Shown one piece after another: positions 1,191 to 32,733 of a DNA stretch of 44,850 nt. The notes under the pieces were generated by a model that saw only the letters and a program-made list of their open reading frames with translations, had not been told where the DNA came from and did no database searches. Within the stretch, counting starts at the first letter, position 1, and every line of letters begins with the position of its first letter. Source of the DNA: Myxococcota bacterium (GTDB taxonomy: Bacteria > Myxococcota_A > UBA796 > CAJQPC01); NCBI GenBank assembly GCA_023150775.1, contig JAKLKE010000014.1:1-44850 (forward strand), written 5' to 3'. A program made the position numbers and the translations under genes.

Positions 1191-2470
1191 CAGAGGCCCT
1201 CGCTGATCAAGAGCTCGCTGAGGTGCTGGAATCCGGCGATGTAGGCTTGCCAGAGTCGCTCACACTCCACAGTAGTGGGCGAACGCCAGCGCCATTGGCG
1301 ACCCCGCTCCGCTGTCTCGACGGTGCAGATCACGAAGCGCCCAGCAATCTCTTCTGGACCCTCTCCGGGGCCGTAACGGTCGAGGAGCAGGGGGTTCTGT
1401 ACGGCGTGGAAGCCTTGGCGGGGGCCAAGGTGGTCGATGATCGCCTGCACCCAGCCTGCGTGCAGGCCGTTGGTGAGCTCGTCGGTGAGGAGGGGGAGGT
1501 TTACGCCGACGCCTACCCGCCAGATCAAGGCGATGAGACGCTTCTGACCGAAGGAGAGCTGACTGTGGTGGTGTATGGCGCCGCCGTCCCAATGGACGTA
1601 AATGTCGAAGCCGCGCCAGCGGCGATGGCCCCGACTATTAACAGAGATGAGGCGAGGGCTAAACTCAACACGCTCGGCGCCGAGCAGGCGGTTGAGGAGC
1701 GAACTGTCTGTGTGTTCGGTGGTCTGTGTGTCGAGGGCGTTGGGGAGACGCACCCAATCGGGGATGTCGTGAGACTGCTCGATATCGTTGGGCCAATTCT
1801 CTTTTTTGTCTCGCTCCTCCATCTCGATTGTGTCGTTGTGGTCTCCGACGATCTGACCAAAACACGAGAGCGCCTCATCAAACCGAACGGGAAACTCTGG
1901 GTCCATGAGGTCATCAACGTTCTCGATGCGGTCGGCCCCAATCACCTCGTCACCGCGGGCGTCCTCAACTGACGCTAGGTCCATCGCCAGCTCAAGTAGC
2001 CAGAATTTATGATCGGCGCCGACCTTCGTGGGATCGTCGACGTGCAGTCTCTCGCCAGATTTGAGCCTAAACTCTGGGGCTTCATCGACTGTGTGGCTAA
2101 ACAGAATGGGCTGCTCCTCGGCGCTTCGTGCATGCAACACCCCCGTCGCCCTCCATTTCCGCTTCGTCCGCCTCGCGGCGCGCTCATCCGAACCAGAATG
2201 GGTCAGTGGCTCAATCTCAAGGGTCAGCTCCAACCTCGTCGTGACACCCTCCGCCTCGGCCTCCAACACCCACGACAGCTCGACGGCCTGCTCCTCCCTA
2301 AACAGCGGGCGCAGATCGCTTTGCAACAACACCCCAATCAACTCCAACAACGTCGTCTTCCCGCTCCCGTTCGGCCCCAGCAGGAACACAGGCCCCGGCC
2401 CGAACCTCAGCGGCCCGCCGTCAACGAGGTCACGGTACTTGCGGACGTGTAGCTCGACGAGTCGCAGCAT
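1187..2470 (-). CDS. SMC/ABC-type AAA ATPase of a putative two-gene defence system
   Basis: A 427-residue ATPase of the RecF/SbcC/AAA15-like group. It shows Walker A GPNGSGKTT at residues 32-40, a signature-like LSFGQKR at 305-311, and Walker B LPLLTDE at 325-331 followed by a D-loop-like NGLH. Then comes HAVQNPLLLD, at the place where relatives often have a THSP-type switch. The middle (about 80-300) is charged and probably forms the arm or insertion that senses or binds a partner. Start is ATG 2470 with a weak GGGAG upstream. The next gene overlaps its stop by 4 bases. AT content is visibly higher than in flanking genes, with runs such as CTTTTTTG, which fits horizontal acquisition. Anti-phage role is inferred from architecture. 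Confidence 0.75.
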   Translation of the reverse strand: MLRLVELHVRKYRDLVDGGPLRFGPGPVFLLGPNGSGKTTLLELIGVLLQSDLRPLFREEQAVELSWVLEAEAEGVTTRLELTLEIEPLTHSGSDERAARRTKRKWRATGVLHARSAEEQPILFSHTVDEAPEFRLKSGERLHVDDPTKVGADHKFWLLELAMDLASVEDARGDEVIGADRIENVDDLMDPEFPVRFDEALSCFGQIVGDHNDTIEMEERDKKENWPNDIEQSHDIPDWVRLPNALDTQTTEHTDSSLLNRLLGAERVEFSPRLISVNSRGHRRWRGFDIYVHWDGGAIHHHSQLSFGQKRLIALIWRVGVGVNLPLLTDELTNGLHAGWVQAIIDHLGPRQGFHAVQNPLLLDRYGPGEGPEEIAGRFVICTVETAERGRQWRWRSPTTVECERLWQAYIAGFQHLSELLISEGLW

Positions 2471-2507
2471 GGGGCTCCCGGGGTTGCTCAGGGCATTATC
2501 GCCCCGC

Positions 2508-3650
2508 TCACCGACTCAGCCACCACCCCCGCGTCTTCTTCTCCACCTTCTCGCCGAAGATCTTCGCCTTCAGCCCACGCAGGTCGTCGCTCACCTCGCT
2601 GCGGGGGGCGTGCTCCACGACGCTCAGGCCCTCGTTGAGGGCGCCGTTCACGGCGTCGTAGTCGTTGGCGAGGGTCCAGATGCCCGGGGCCTTGAGCTGG
2701 GCGGTGATCTCGTCGCGGTCGGGCTTGCGGCGGGGGTTGTAGCGGTTGAGCACGATGTGGAGCTGGTCTCTCTCTAAGCCCATGTCGGTCAGGAGCTTGA
2801 GGCGCCGCACGGCGGTGCGTAAGGACACGATCTCTTGATCGGTCACGAGCACGACGTGGCTGGCTTCAGCGAGCACCGCCCGGCCCGCGTCGGCCATGGC
2901 CGAGCCAGAATCGACGATGACGTGGGTGAAGGTGCGGCGCAGCACACCCATGAGGGGCGCGATGTCTTGTTCGGTGACGGTGGTGGTGTCGATGTCCTCT
3001 TCAGGCTGGGGCAGCACCCACAGGCCGGACTCTTTGCGCACCACGGCGCCGCGCACCTTGTTGACGTCGAGGCGGCTGAGGTTCGCCAGGAGGTCGTGGG
3101 TCGTGTAGCCCGTGCGCAGGTTGATCGCGGAGATGAGGTCGCCGCCGGCTTGGTCCAGATCGACGACGACGGCGGCGTTACGTTTCTCTTGGGCGATGAC
3201 ATGCGCGAGGCCCAGGGCCACGGTGGTCACGCCCACACCGCCCCGGCTGCCGGTGACGGCGATGACCTCGGCGCTGCCTTCGCCTTGGCCGACGACACGC
3301 TCGGCGAGCTCGGTGACGACCTCGGCGAGGCGGGCGGCGTCGCGGTAGGGGTGGAGCAGCTCGCGGCAGCCGGCGCGCATGGCGGCGAGGAGGTTGTCCT
3401 TCACGTCGGCGTCGCCCAGCATCACCAGCTCCATGCGGGTGTGCGGCGCGATGGAGCGGGCGACGCGTAGGGCGTCCTCAAAGTCGCGGGTGCCGTTCAC
3501 GAAGAGGAGCTGGGTGCCGACCTCCTCGATGACGTGGACCGGGGCGTAGTGGTCGGGCCAGGCCCCGACGGGCACGGCCACCTGGGCGAGGGCCTGGCGC
3601 AGGTGGGCCTCTAAGACGCTGGTGCCGCCGAGCAGTCCGTATCGAACCAC
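2508..3650 (-). CDS. cpaE: TadZ/CpaE-like pilus assembly ATPase
   Basis: About 380 residues if begun at GTG 3650 (VVRYGLLGG), preceded by GGAG at suitable spacing. An upstream in-frame extension to 3797 overlaps the neighbouring gene and is rejected. The first ~130 residues look like a receiver-like domain, as in TadZ/CpaE. Then follows a MinD/ParA-type ATPase with a degenerate P-loop, GSRGGVGVTT, lacking the usual Lys before the Thr pair. VVVDLDQAGGDL and HVIVDSGSAMADA are the switch strands. TadZ/CpaE proteins position Tad/Flp pilus machinery at the inner membrane. A TadG-like gene lies at 19695, but no other tad gene is adjacent. Confidence 0.8.
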   Translation of the reverse strand: MVRYGLLGGTSVLEAHLRQALAQVAVPVGAWPDHYAPVHVIEEVGTQLLFVNGTRDFEDALRVARSIAPHTRMELVMLGDADVKDNLLAAMRAGCRELLHPYRDAARLAEVVTELAERVVGQGEGSAEVIAVTGSRGGVGVTTVALGLAHVIAQEKRNAAVVVDLDQAGGDLISAINLRTGYTTHDLLANLSRLDVNKVRGAVVRKESGLWVLPQPEEDIDTTTVTEQDIAPLMGVLRRTFTHVIVDSGSAMADAGRAVLAEASHVVLVTDQEIVSLRTAVRRLKLLTDMGLERDQLHIVLNRYNPRRKPDRDEITAQLKAPGIWTLANDYDAVNGALNEGLSVVEHAPRSEVSDDLRGLKAKIFGEKVEKKTRGWWLSR

Positions 3651-27160: not shown

Positions 27161-28210
27161 GTGAGGTACCGACTGCTGCGCTGGCTCTCCTGCCCCCACT
27201 GCCCGGACGAGGACCTGGTGCTGGAGACAACCAAGACCCGCACCACGGCGACTTACACCGGCGCCTGGCGGCCGGAAGACGTCGGCGAGAAGGGCGTAGA
27301 CCTCGATCGCCAGCTCCACACCGACATCTTAGAGGGCACACTTCATTGCCCGAGCTGCGCCCGCAGCTACCCCATCGTGGACGGCATCCCCCGGCTGCTG
27401 CCCGACGCCACGGCGCAGAGCCCCAGCTCCGGCCACCGCTGGACGACCTTCGACGGCACCGAGCCCGAGTACGAAGAGAACTTCCGCGACATGGCCGACC
27501 CCCTCAAGCCCCCGGACTACGTCGGCCAGCTCGTGCTCGACGCCGGCTGCGGCTTCGGGCGCCACGCCTTCTACGCCGCGCGGTATGGCGCCGAGGTCGT
27601 GGCGATGGACATCTCCGCCGACGCCGTCGCCTCGGCCCAGTCCAACTGTGATCGGCTCCAGCACGTTCACATCGTGCAAGGGGACCTGCGTAAGCCGCCG
27701 CTGAAGGCCCGCAGCTTCGATCTGGTGTACTGCTTCGGCGTGCTCCACCACATCCAGGCGCCCCAGGCGGCGTTCCGGGTGCTCGGAGAGCTGGTGAAGC
27801 CCAACGGGCGGGCGCAGATCTGGGCCTATGGGCCTCGGGCGGGCTCGGCGGCGATGATCTCCGGGGCGCTGCGCGGCGCGGCGGCGAGCATGGATGACGA
27901 GCGCCTCTACGGCCTCTGCCGGGCCATCGCCTCTAGCCTGCGCCTGTTCTCCCACACGCCCTACCGCCTCACCCGCAAGCTGCCGGTGCTGGGCGCCATC
28001 GCCTCGCACCTCCCGGCGCACGACCACCACAAGTGGCCCTTCGACGTCGTGGTGGCCGACATCTACGACCGTCTGCGGGTGCCGGTGACGGCGACCTTCA
28101 CCGGCGAAGAGCTGGAGCGCTGGTTTGTGGACGAGGGCTACGCCGACATCCGCGTGACCCGCCGCGTGCGCAACAACGAGAGCTTCCGCGCGACGGGTGT
28201 GCGGCGTTAG
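27161..28210 (+). CDS. SAM-dependent methyltransferase with N-terminal Trm112-like zinc ribbon
   Basis: A 349-residue protein from GTG 27161, with GAGGAG a suitable distance upstream. Residues about 8-80 form a Trm112-like zinc ribbon: SCPHC first, then LHCPSCARSYPIVDGIPRLLP. A class I methyltransferase follows, with LVLDAGCGFGRHAFYAARYG (motif I), VVAMDIS (acidic end of strand 2), and FDLVYCFGVLHHI (motif IV). A C-terminal helical part (about 220-310) replaces a simple Rossmann end. Such fusions methylate small molecules, lipids or polyketide-like products; the substrate cannot be deduced. No operon partners on this strand. Confidence 0.85.
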   Translation: MRYRLLRWLSCPHCPDEDLVLETTKTRTTATYTGAWRPEDVGEKGVDLDRQLHTDILEGTLHCPSCARSYPIVDGIPRLLPDATAQSPSSGHRWTTFDGTEPEYEENFRDMADPLKPPDYVGQLVLDAGCGFGRHAFYAARYGAEVVAMDISADAVASAQSNCDRLQHVHIVQGDLRKPPLKARSFDLVYCFGVLHHIQAPQAAFRVLGELVKPNGRAQIWAYGPRAGSAAMISGALRGAAASMDDERLYGLCRAIASSLRLFSHTPYRLTRKLPVLGAIASHLPAHDHHKWPFDVVVADIYDRLRVPVTATFTGEELERWFVDEGYADIRVTRRVRNNESFRATGVRR

Positions 28211-29041: not shown

Positions 29042-29117
29042 CAAAACAGATCAGGCTCATCACACCTCCGAAGCCCGGGATTGTACCAGGGTTCACGGCG
29101 AGGGTGACAAGTCGGTG

Positions 29118-29663
29118 TCAGCGCATCCAGTGCGGCTTGGGGCGCTTCCAGGCGTTGCCGTCTTCGGCCTTCTTGATCCCGTAACGCATGACCTGCAGCG
29201 AGAAGATGAGCTCAACCTTGGGGTCTTCGCGGGCCCAGATGGGGTAGGGCTTCGTCTCTAGCGTGCGTGTGCGCTGGCCCACGACCTGCTTGTGGCCACA
29301 GTTCCAGTAGATCTGGGGCAAGGCGGCGTCGGGCACCTCGTGGCGTTCTTCGTCGACGACCAAGGTGGGCAAGATGCCTCGGGGCGAGACCGCCATCTCG
29401 ACGTGAGAGCGCTCGTTGGCGCGGTAGATGAAGATCGGCCCGTCCTTCCCCGGGATGGGGCTGTCGAGATCACGGACGAGGGGCCCATGCTTCGTGACCA
29501 CCGCCGTGACGCCGTCAAACAGCGCCGCCAAGGCGGCCACCCGCAGGGGATCTTCGTCCTCGGAGTTGCGGGTGTGGAGGAAGCCGAGCGGGAACTTCAT
29601 CGTCCGCTCGGTGAACTCGTCGAGGGAGAACATCAAGAAGAGCTGCATTTGCTCTTCGTCCAC
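29118..29663 (-). CDS. Hypothetical protein, faint nucleotidyltransferase-like C-terminus
   Basis: About 181 residues from GTG 29663, chosen for the GGAGG six bases upstream. No signal peptide. The C-terminal part, ALPQIYWNCGHKQVVGQRT and PYPIWAREDPKVELIF, faintly recalls the LPxxYWxNG...vDID ending of acylneuraminate cytidylyltransferases. The N-terminal nucleotide-binding loop of that family is absent, so this is a weak lead or a truncated relative. VAALAALFDGVTAVVTKHGP is a helix-strand segment. It follows the DUF6932 pair by 115 bases on the same strand. Otherwise unrecognised. Confidence 0.55.
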   Translation of the reverse strand: MDEEQMQLFLMFSLDEFTERTMKFPLGFLHTRNSEDEDPLRVAALAALFDGVTAVVTKHGPLVRDLDSPIPGKDGPIFIYRANERSHVEMAVSPRGILPTLVVDEERHEVPDAALPQIYWNCGHKQVVGQRTRTLETKPYPIWAREDPKVELIFSLQVMRYGIKKAEDGNAWKRPKPHWMR

Positions 29664-29778
29664 AGCGCACCTCCTCGGCGAGCCCAGGCCAGCCCGTTGA
29701 CGGAACAGCCAACAGGGGATCCCCAAGCCTACCACAAGGCGCAGCGAATGTCAGCGACTCACCAGTCGGAGCGATGGC

Positions 29779-30681
29779 TTAGCTGGGCTCCGCCTCGGCG
29801 GGCTGAACGTCGCGCAGCACCCAGGTCACTCGGCTGCGGGTGTTGTTCGCCGTCGTCACTCGACCGAGGGTCGTGACGACGCGCTGGTTGTAGAGCGCGG
29901 TGAGCAGCTCAAGGGACAGCTCAGAGGCGACCCGGCCGCTGAGCACGACGCCCTCCGGCTCCTCCCGCAGCTCAAACTGCGAGCGCTGCTGCATGAGGCC
30001 GATGAGCCGCCCGACTCGCCGCTCCTGGGTCTCTTGAATCGTCGTCGCCTCTGCCCGATCTCGCGCCGCCTTGATCCGATCGACGTCGTCTAACCGAAGG
30101 CTCACCTGGCCCGTCTCTACCTTGAGCGTGGCTTGGGCCTCGGTGAGCACACGAAAGAAGGCCTTGAGCTGGGTCAACACCCGCCCGGAGCGACCGGTGA
30201 GGCGCTCGGTGAAGGTCTCATCGGAGTCCGCGGCGGCGTGCAGGAGACGAGTCGTCTCGTCGAGGGCGAGCTTGAGCGGGGAGGGGCCAGTCCCCACGAG
30301 CTGGTCGGGAACCTCGCTGAGCTGAAAGCCGAAGGATCCGGTCTCAACCCCGGTGATGAGCAGGCGCGGCGCCTGGGCCAGCGCGCCCCGTGGCCCGAGG
30401 TCGCTGGTCATCGCCGCCACGAGCTCCTGAAAGACCTGAACGCTCTGGCCGCCGAAGCGGGCCTCGATCCCGAGCTGGGCACGAACCGGCGCGCCGTCGA
30501 ACAGCAGCTCGGCCTCGGCGAGCGTCGCGGCCTGTTGTTCGGCGAGGCGAACCTCCGCCTCGGCCTCCTCAAGACGGCTCTCTAAGTTCCGGCGCGTGAT
30601 GGGGGAGCGGGTGCCCTCAATCATGGCGCGGAGCGTGTCGAGGTGCGACTGGGAGCGATCGACGGCGCGGGCGTAGATCAT
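29779..30681 (-). CDS. Partner protein of the DUF6932 nucleotidyltransferase, unknown function
   Basis: A 300-residue soluble protein whose ATG overlaps the stop of the nucleotidyltransferase gene (ATGA). Residues 1-55 form a charged helical segment, probably coiled coil (NLESRLEEAEAEVRLAEQQAA). Around 110-125 is LLITGVETGSFGFQLSE, a compact ITG..GSFGF motif that I regard as the family hallmark. The middle is helical, the C-terminus beta (VVLSGRVASELSLELLTAL, SRVTWVLRDVQ). No enzyme motif is seen. Strict coupling to a minimal nucleotidyltransferase suggests it is the target, antidote or sensor of that protein. This is inference from gene order. Confidence 0.6.
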   Translation of the reverse strand: MIYARAVDRSQSHLDTLRAMIEGTRSPITRRNLESRLEEAEAEVRLAEQQAATLAEAELLFDGAPVRAQLGIEARFGGQSVQVFQELVAAMTSDLGPRGALAQAPRLLITGVETGSFGFQLSEVPDQLVGTGPSPLKLALDETTRLLHAAADSDETFTERLTGRSGRVLTQLKAFFRVLTEAQATLKVETGQVSLRLDDVDRIKAARDRAEATTIQETQERRVGRLIGLMQQRSQFELREEPEGVVLSGRVASELSLELLTALYNQRVVTTLGRVTTANNTRSRVTWVLRDVQPAEAEPS

Positions 30682-31226
30682 CGACGAGGCTCCTTTAGCT
30701 GCGCGAGGGCCTGCACATCCTCCGTGGCCTCAGCCGACAAAGTCACCTGGAGGACTCCTTTCCATCGGAGCGTGTTGCGTTGATGCCCGAACATCCCTGA
30801 CCAGTATACCGCTTGCTCCACCACCTCTTCAGGGCTCGCCGTGGTGAGGTTCACATAGTAGCCGTCTACCAGGAGCCGCCGCTTCGTCTCTTGGTGACGC
30901 CAAAGCTCGGGCTGGGCGGCGTCGATCCGCTCCTCGTCCTCGGCGGAGAGCGCGTGGAACGTGACGACGTCCACGTCGTTGGGCTCCGCCTCGCGCCGCT
31001 CGACGAAGCTCCCGCAGATCCACTGGCGTCCGGTCATCCCGACCGCGCGCAGCTCCGCCCGGTATTGAATCAAGCCCTCGGCGATCTCGCGGCGCCTCGG
31101 CGTGAAACAAAGGCGCTCGACGAGCTCCTCCATCGTGCAGGCGTAGGGGGAGCAGCGCGGCCCCAACATCGGGGAGCTCCCGACGAAGGGCGGGAGCAGC
31201 CGGTGCTGATCAAACGTGGGGATCAT
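30678..31226 (-). CDS. DUF6932-family minimal nucleotidyltransferase
   Basis: A 182-residue protein. The opening IPTFDQHRLLPPFVG and then EELVERL...RRREIAEGL match the layout I know from DUF6932 proteins. Residues 72-86 give the polymerase-beta-like nucleotidyltransferase motif: GS (72-73), ten residues, then DVD (D84, D86) in EPNDVDVV. A third acid may be in LLVDGYYVNL. Comparable minimal nucleotidyltransferases act as toxins or antitoxins that modify tRNA or protein (MNT, AbiEii groups). Starts at ATG 31226, 22 bases after the outer-membrane gene stop, without a clear ribosome site. Coupled to the downstream 300-residue gene. Confidence 0.7.
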   Translation of the reverse strand: MIPTFDQHRLLPPFVGSSPMLGPRCSPYACTMEELVERLCFTPRRREIAEGLIQYRAELRAVGMTGRQWICGSFVERREAEPNDVDVVTFHALSAEDEERIDAAQPELWRHQETKRRLLVDGYYVNLTTASPEEVVEQAVYWSGMFGHQRNTLRWKGVLQVTLSAEATEDVQALAQLKEPRR

Positions 31227-31248
31227 CGGATCACCGACGCCGTCTCGC

Positions 31249-32733
31249 CTAGAAGTGCGACCGCAGCATCAGGTTGAAGCCCACGGCGTTCGTGACCCGG
31301 GGGTCTTCGCGCTCGCGGATACGCACGCCGTCGTCGGAGTCGACCACCCGCGACTGGTTGTTGTCGAGGTTGATGAGCAGCTCACCGAGCACGACGGTGG
31401 ACTTCGAGAGCTCGTACTGGGCGCCGATCACCGAGCCGAGCACGGCGTAGGCGGGCTCTCCCGTCGGCACGCCCTCTTTGTTGCGGGCGTCGTACTGCAC
31501 ATAGGTGCTGCCGTCGGTGGTGGTGTAGGTCGCGGGCTGCATGAGGCCCACGCCGACGCTGGGCGTGAAGTGCGCCGCGGGGAAGTTGTGGGCCACACGC
31601 ACGCGGCCGTAGATCTGCGGGGTGTGGCTGACCTTCTCGGAGATCGCCGCGCCGGAGGTGAGCCCGGGGATGTTGAACACGATGTAGGGCAGGTCTTTGT
31701 AGACCAGGTCGGCGAAGAGCTCGGTGGAGCCGAAGATCACCGCGGTCTGGATGTCACCGGCGAAGCCGCGCTCCAGGATCGTCGCCGAGGTGTCGTCGGG
31801 GTCGAGGAGGTTGTGCACCAAGGAGTTGATCTCGGCCTGGACCAAGAACCCGAAGCCCTCCAAGAAGCGGTTCGTGATGTAGGTGTCGCGCATGTACTCC
31901 GGGCTGTTGCGGTACAGCCGGAGCTCTGACGACTGGATGAAGGGGATGTCCGTCGTCGAGCGGTAGCTCACCTGGCCGCTCGTGCCCCAGGCCACGATCA
32001 TCTCGCCGAAGAGCGGCGAGGACGTGTCTTGCACGTTGATGATCTGGCCTTGCTGGAAGAGGCCCGTGCCGGCCTCGATCCGCAGCTTGCCCTGGAAGTC
32101 GAGGCCCGCCCCGGCGAGCACGCTGTAGTAGGCGGCGTTGCGCGTGCCCTCCCACTCGGCGTTATTGGCCTGGTTCACGGCGGTCTTCGCGCCGAGGAAG
32201 GCGTAGGATCCGTTGTTCTGGTACTGCAGGCGCACGCCGGGCATCGCGCCGGGCTGGGGCGAGATGATCTCGCGGCCGCCGTAGCTCAGGTCGAAGGAGT
32301 AGCCGAGGCGGAAGCGGCTCGCGTCTACGGCGTAGCCGGTGAGCGAGAGGTTGTGCTTCTTGTCGCCGTTAAACGACCGGATGATGCGCACATAGCTGCC
32401 GTCATCACGGACGCTGACGCCAGGGCGGGTGACGTCGGGGTTGAGGAAGGGCGTGTACTCCAGCACAAACGCCGCCTCCGTCGTCCAGTTCGGGCGGAAG
32501 CCCTCGTCCTCGCGGTAGAGCACGAGGTGGCCCTGGCTGATGTCGTCGGTCCAGAACGCCTCGTAGTTCTCGAAGAAGATCTGGTTGCCGCGCTGCACAA
32601 AGTTCGGCGAGGGGGAGAAGTCACCTGGGCCCGCCCGGAGGTTCGTGTCCTCGATGGCGGTGGTCACCCAGATGTCCATAAAGTCGCCAGCGAGCGCCCC
32701 GTTGGAGGCCAGCGCGAGGGCAGTGAGAAACAT
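31249..32733 (-). CDS. Outer-membrane beta-barrel protein
   Basis: A 494-residue protein with a short uncharged signal peptide MFLTALALASNGALAGD and a C-terminal phenylalanine (LMLRSHF), the usual end of a barrel recognised by the BAM machine. The sequence is alternating amphipathic strands rich in Tyr, Phe and Asn (RFRLGYSFDLSYGG, VRLQYQNNGSYAFLGA), with conserved acidic loops. GGAG precedes ATG 32733 at eight bases. It is the last gene of a probable operon with the 5'-nucleotidase lipoprotein and the 390-residue lipoprotein. Family not recognised; porin, channel or structural role are all possible. Confidence 0.72.
   Translation of the reverse strand: MFLTALALASNGALAGDFMDIWVTTAIEDTNLRAGPGDFSPSPNFVQRGNQIFFENYEAFWTDDISQGHLVLYREDEGFRPNWTTEAAFVLEYTPFLNPDVTRPGVSVRDDGSYVRIIRSFNGDKKHNLSLTGYAVDASRFRLGYSFDLSYGGREIISPQPGAMPGVRLQYQNNGSYAFLGAKTAVNQANNAEWEGTRNAAYYSVLAGAGLDFQGKLRIEAGTGLFQQGQIINVQDTSSPLFGEMIVAWGTSGQVSYRSTTDIPFIQSSELRLYRNSPEYMRDTYITNRFLEGFGFLVQAEINSLVHNLLDPDDTSATILERGFAGDIQTAVIFGSTELFADLVYKDLPYIVFNIPGLTSGAAISEKVSHTPQIYGRVRVAHNFPAAHFTPSVGVGLMQPATYTTTDGSTYVQYDARNKEGVPTGEPAYAVLGSVIGAQYELSKSTVVLGELLINLDNNQSRVVDSDDGVRIREREDPRVTNAVGFNLMLRSHF

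Follow-up and report, generated by a model that had tools for sequence, protein, structure and literature searches.

A DUF6932 nucleotidyltransferase and its GSFGF-motif partner in a Myxococcota bacterium: a divergent relative of the candidate PDC-M63AB and a possible mobile toxin-antitoxin-type module

Background

PDC-M63AB is carried by PADLOC as a candidate defence system that is as yet unproven. The only published test that we found deleted it from E. coli NILS69, and none of the ten phages tried infected differently (PMC12409345). A DUF6575 protein belonged to a system recovered from a functional defence screen (PMC9519451). Our literature search, outside which most subscription papers lay, turned up no paper that mentions DUF6932 or DUF6527 by name, and none describing an abortive-infection system built from a nucleotidyltransferase and an OB-fold protein.

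Here we describe a gene pair that appears to be related to both. The window analysed is a 44,850-nucleotide stretch of contig JAKLKE010000014.1 from a Myxococcota bacterium (assembly GCA_023150775.1). A first-pass annotation, made from the letters alone, had singled out two overlapping genes in it as a candidate toxin-antitoxin or defence pair that matched no system it could name.

Results

The first gene of the pair encodes a DUF6932 nucleotidyltransferase (hereafter NT) of 182 aa (30678-31226, minus strand), and the second a partner of 300 aa (29779-30681, minus strand). Both start with ATG, and they overlap by 4 bases, an ATGA that can be read directly at 30678-30681 of the minus strand, just as the first-pass annotation had it. 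Composition is of the coding type in both frames, with codon-position GC of 68/45/84% and 73/47/86%. The earlier assignment of the NT also holds: it is a strong, full-length match to DUF6932 (PF22014; 114.4 bits where 27 is the cut-off, covering positions 1-142 of the 142 in the model, E = 7.5e-33), and its GS-x10-DxD motif is intact. G72-S73 (31008-31013, minus strand) and D84-V-D86 (30969-30977, minus strand) are separated by ten residues. The likely third carboxylate is D121 (30864-30866, minus strand), which lies on a strand in the AlphaFold model. The residues expected of the nucleotidyltransferase superfamily are thus all in place, with GS, D84 and D86 in 32/32 homologues and D121 in 30/32 (E in 1, H in 1); H148, K156 and G157 are invariant in the same set. 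The AlphaFold model of the NT has a pLDDT of 94.5, and the nearest solved folds are mostly MNT proteins (HI0073, MntA, HEPN-MNT), all of them weak matches with a best E of 0.012.

The partner has no family in Pfam; weak matches of its family to DUF1176 and CheW were judged to be chance. It does match phrog_18731, a phage protein family without an assigned function, over residues 25-286 (E = 9.5e-35). In the AlphaFold model (pLDDT 89, lower in parts of residues 61-130) a helical hairpin is followed by a mixed middle part that holds the GSFGF strand, and then by a C-terminal beta barrel. The hairpin, modelled at residues 2-53 (30523-30678, minus strand), is proposed to be the part that binds the NT. 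The ITG..GSFGF hallmark described earlier is present as LITGVETGSFGF. Its GSFGF motif, residues 115-119 (30325-30339, minus strand), is read directly and is kept in homologues, a conservation figure that is inflated because one of the scan patterns contained GSFGF. The barrel, residues 214-294 (29800-30042, minus strand), is OB-like in the predicted model: Foldseek matches it to many OB folds with a probability of 1.0 and a TMt of up to 0.70, none with E < 0.001. Among these is Rim1, for which a TMt of 0.60-0.70 comes with an E of about 0.01-0.02, a weak match to a predicted model. Profile searches of solved structures returned nothing credible. As to HEPN, the partner has no family match in Pfam and no RX4-6H motif that we could see by eye, and its predicted fold differs.

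A profile scan with the partner only, taking one genome per species, gave 35 loci, which by record title belong to alpha-, beta- and gammaproteobacteria, an acidobacterium, a Chloroflexota and a spirochaete. In 34 of these the partner is immediately preceded, on its own strand, by NT sequence, which is intact 31 times and disrupted 3 times by a frameshift or truncation (L015, L017, L028); at the remaining locus (L043) an NT was not detectable beside the partner. The first-pass annotation would have abandoned its proposal had the two genes failed to co-occur elsewhere, or had the catalytic motif varied among homologues. The genes do co-occur, so the pair is conserved across genomes, and the motif is conserved as well. 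Pooling all sources yielded 38 intact pairs, in which the spacing between NT and partner runs from -17 to +19 nt and the genes overlap in 31, by exactly 4 nt in 17 and by 17 nt in 11. Pairwise distances among the NTs and among the partners of these 38 pairs co-vary closely (Mantel r = 0.889; best of 2000 permutations 0.225), an agreement expected if both genes are inherited or transferred together. A separate locus (L052:1486-3547, minus strand) holds a partner-like ORF that is shortened; no NT was found next to it, and a DarG antitoxin gene (E = 7.2e-137) adjoins it.

Decayed pairs are found in both directions. At four loci (L015, L017, L028, L049), some of which may be assembly errors, the partner is intact but the NT next to it is broken; at two (L010, L122) the NT is intact and the partner lost or truncated. 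Loss patterns at these six loci are weak evidence on the toxin role. L010, where an intact NT has no partner behind it, speaks against the NT as a strong toxin.

In the window the pair lies within an inserted segment of ~2.15 kb (29096-31250), in place of which a genome of the same genus (G001) has 52 bp. The flanks of the insertion site are contiguous in that genome and 91-93% identical to the window. A search of the window's genome and 57 relatives, 58 in all, turned up either gene of the pair in only 2, namely the window's own and G054. The two genes come and go together as a cassette. The segment contains no transposase, and convincing terminal repeats were not found at its ends. It also carries a 205-aa ORF of coding-type composition (29118-29735, minus strand) for which Pfam, PADLOC, the plasmids and the other pair loci hold no homologue. 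As the other pair loci are without it, we rejected this ORF as a fixed third gene and regard it as a passenger. Elsewhere in the window, at 27161-28210 on the plus strand, is a methyltransferase with a Trm112-like N-terminal part.

Other copies of the pair sit on plasmids of Bradyrhizobium, Pseudomonas, Methylobacterium and Paraburkholderia. At ten loci (L006, L026, L027, L030, L032, L033, L034, L036, L038, L041) a DUF6527-ThiF-multiubiquitin operon converges with the pair, ending about 15-20 bp from the pair's stop; a contig end cuts this operon in L030, L032 and L034. Beyond the operon there is an ImmA/IrrE gene, as in L006, at all 7 of the 7 loci with enough sequence. Matches to defence models among 146 flanking ORFs include PsyrA (6), E1-E2 (4), SIR2/pAgo (2-3) and type IIG (2), which, the gene calls being crude, we read as a tendency for defence genes to lie near the pair and not as a measured enrichment.

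To avoid selecting for the partner, we also searched with DUF6932 only, which gave 37 NT loci, 19 in the window's phylum and 18 in Pseudomonadota. Partner classes, called by HMM matches mixed with reading of the sequences by eye, were a GSFGF-type protein in 21, an XRE-HTH protein in 15 (some of which include an ImmA/IrrE part) and a remnant in 1. Within the window's phylum, counting a frame-split NT once, 8 partners are of the GSF type and 11 are XRE-HTH proteins; two of the 8 are of the divergent L003/L099 type. Pseudomonadota have 13 GSF-type partners, 4 XRE proteins and one locus (L122) with only a 69-aa hairpin-like ORF; an M78/ImmA-IrrE domain was confirmed in both of the XRE proteins tested there (L112, L117). 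Direct alignment of the two partner classes detected no sequence relation, and direct homology of their hairpins was tested and found unsupported. The one possible bridge is L099, a GSF-type protein starting MIRND that is matched by the XRE hairpin profile (E = 1.5e-4, Z = 1000), and whose group is linked with PDC-M63B at E = 3e-5 and with the window family at E = 1.6e-4. Since these tests each set one chosen profile against another, the bridge is no more than suggestive.

The statement that the pair matches no system that can be named did not survive. The NT matches PADLOC's PDC-M63A at E = 2.6e-13, and comparison of profiles gives E = 3e-12 for PDC-M63A against the NT and E = 1.2e-6 over 280 columns for PDC-M63B against the partner. 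The PDC-M63B models themselves do not match the window partner up to E = 5, and one member of the partner family matches them at E = 0.008. Because homology of the partner comes from profile comparison only, we file the pair as a divergent relative and not as a PDC-M63AB member by the PADLOC criterion. A search with PDC-M63B in the family of the Phytobacter genome gave two loci with the same layout, and the one checked (L055) matches both PDC-M63A and PDC-M63B. DNA similar to the L055 pair is present in 113 of 5426 complete E. coli genomes, always in the chromosome. The genome to which the window belongs carries another, divergent DUF6932 pair (contig C599, L003, about 1453-2837, plus strand) with an ATGA overlap, the partner of which belongs to another sequence group.

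At all six loci read (L075-L080), comprising the lambdoid phages mEpX1, PhiR30_1 and vB_EhrS_59 and three E. coli prophage regions, a PDC-M63 pair comes directly after the repressor gene and on its strand. The same place, directly after the repressor gene, is held in lambda by rexAB. Scans of viral contigs with either window protein found no relative, and tblastn of the window proteins against phages found none; what phages carry is the distant PDC-M63 branch only. By fold, the closest viral match to the window partner is a protein annotated as DUF6575 (E = 1.6e-13). A DUF6575 protein from the window's phylum (L054:1243-2553, minus strand) matches the PDC-M63B models with its C-terminal half at E = 1.1e-9; no DUF6932 gene was found beside it.

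Discussion

We suggest that the two genes form one mobile toxin-antitoxin-type module, a divergent PDC-M63 pair, that most likely serves anti-phage defence or superinfection exclusion, a reading to which we give about an even chance. The original proposal of a toxin-antitoxin or defence pair stands as a candidate: conserved pairing, gene overlap, co-divergence, the site left empty in a congener, copies on plasmids and near defence-type genes, relatives in prophages and the swapping with XRE-type partners all point its way. Against our reading stand the NILS69 deletion with its unchanged phage infections, the partnerless NT of L010, the weak E-values behind the OB assignment and the failure of XRE and GSF partners to align directly. 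Because the NT is constant while its partners swap, and because XRE and XRE-ImmA proteins are the usual antitoxins, the NT is the better candidate for the toxin. Judging from these sequence comparisons, we favour the NT as probable toxin and the partner as probable antitoxin, rather than the NT as an MntA-like antitoxin.

Proteins of the MenT/AbiEii type are nucleotidyltransferase toxins. By analogy, the NT when free may transfer a nucleotide to an essential RNA and so be toxic, with tRNA as a first guess at the target. The partner would silence the NT through its helical hairpin, while the GSFGF domain and the predicted OB fold could bind nucleic acid, be it the operator, the pair's own mRNA or single strands made by a phage; on infection, the partner would then release or redirect the NT. 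A more daring version can be drawn from the same material, in which the GSFGF/OB protein would be a phage-sensing antitoxin that holds an RNA-modifying NT toxin and replaces the DNA-binding XRE antitoxin of sister systems, and in Alphaproteobacteria would work jointly with the abutting DUF6527-ThiF-multiubiquitin conjugation operon, for example if its ubiquitin-like system acted on one of the two proteins. We offer this as speculation, and think it improbable as a whole.

The roles could also be reversed, as in MntA, with the partner as a nucleic-acid-binding toxin that the NT, as antitoxin, would inactivate by adding nucleotides. The solved folds nearest to the NT, MNT antitoxins and their relatives, lean this way despite weak E-values. 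We nevertheless consider such an arrangement rather unlikely, given that the HEPN motif was not seen in the partner, that NTs of this family also come with XRE-HTH proteins, a class not commonly toxic, and that a toxic partner would not easily allow the four loci where it stands intact beside a broken NT. An intact NT motif together with a predicted OB fold, in defence-type and mobile contexts, would equally suit a complex that is no toxin-antitoxin system at all, in which the predicted OB partner would offer the NT a nucleic-acid 3' end to extend or cap, whether in defence against phage nucleic acid or in repair. This too seems to us unlikely, since it leaves the swapping with XRE and XRE-ImmA partners unexplained. 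Finally, neither protein has a known function, and two unrelated accessory genes might simply happen to overlap here. Such chance is hardly credible, being already contradicted by the conservation data: order and strand are the same in nearly all partner loci, most Pseudomonadota NT loci found without using the partner nonetheless have one of the GSF type, and the distances of the two genes co-vary.

The pair ties DUF6932, the PDC-M63 candidate and the DUF6575-type proteins into one group, for which a testable model can be put forward: a nucleotidyltransferase toxin with an antitoxin half that is sometimes an XRE repressor and sometimes a predicted OB-fold protein. More surprising are the change of partner class and the finding that the multiubiquitin operon adjoins the pair repeatedly; neither appears to have been described in the literature searched. 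There is also a practical consequence, in that present PADLOC models miss the branch to which the window pair belongs.

Set beside the systems to which it can be compared, the pair shares with HEPN-MNT (HepT-MntA) a minimal nucleotidyltransferase fold in a two-gene unit, but its partner is not HEPN, and its NT is longer, with a conserved H148-x-R150 and WKG. The DUF6575 protein of L054 differs in having an N-terminal DUF6575 domain that is absent from the window partner. DUF6932-XRE and XRE-ImmA/IrrE pairs have the same NT family, an intact motif and a partner directly downstream, whereas that partner is a helix-turn-helix protein and not of the GSFGF type. The likeness is greatest to PDC-M63AB, where a DUF6932 NT again comes first, a partner of about 310 aa overlaps or adjoins it and both genes are homologous to those of the window, which differ in forming an inserted chromosomal cassette outside a phage immunity region. 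By sequence comparison, then, the window pair is best described as a divergent branch of this candidate rather than as a new kind of system.
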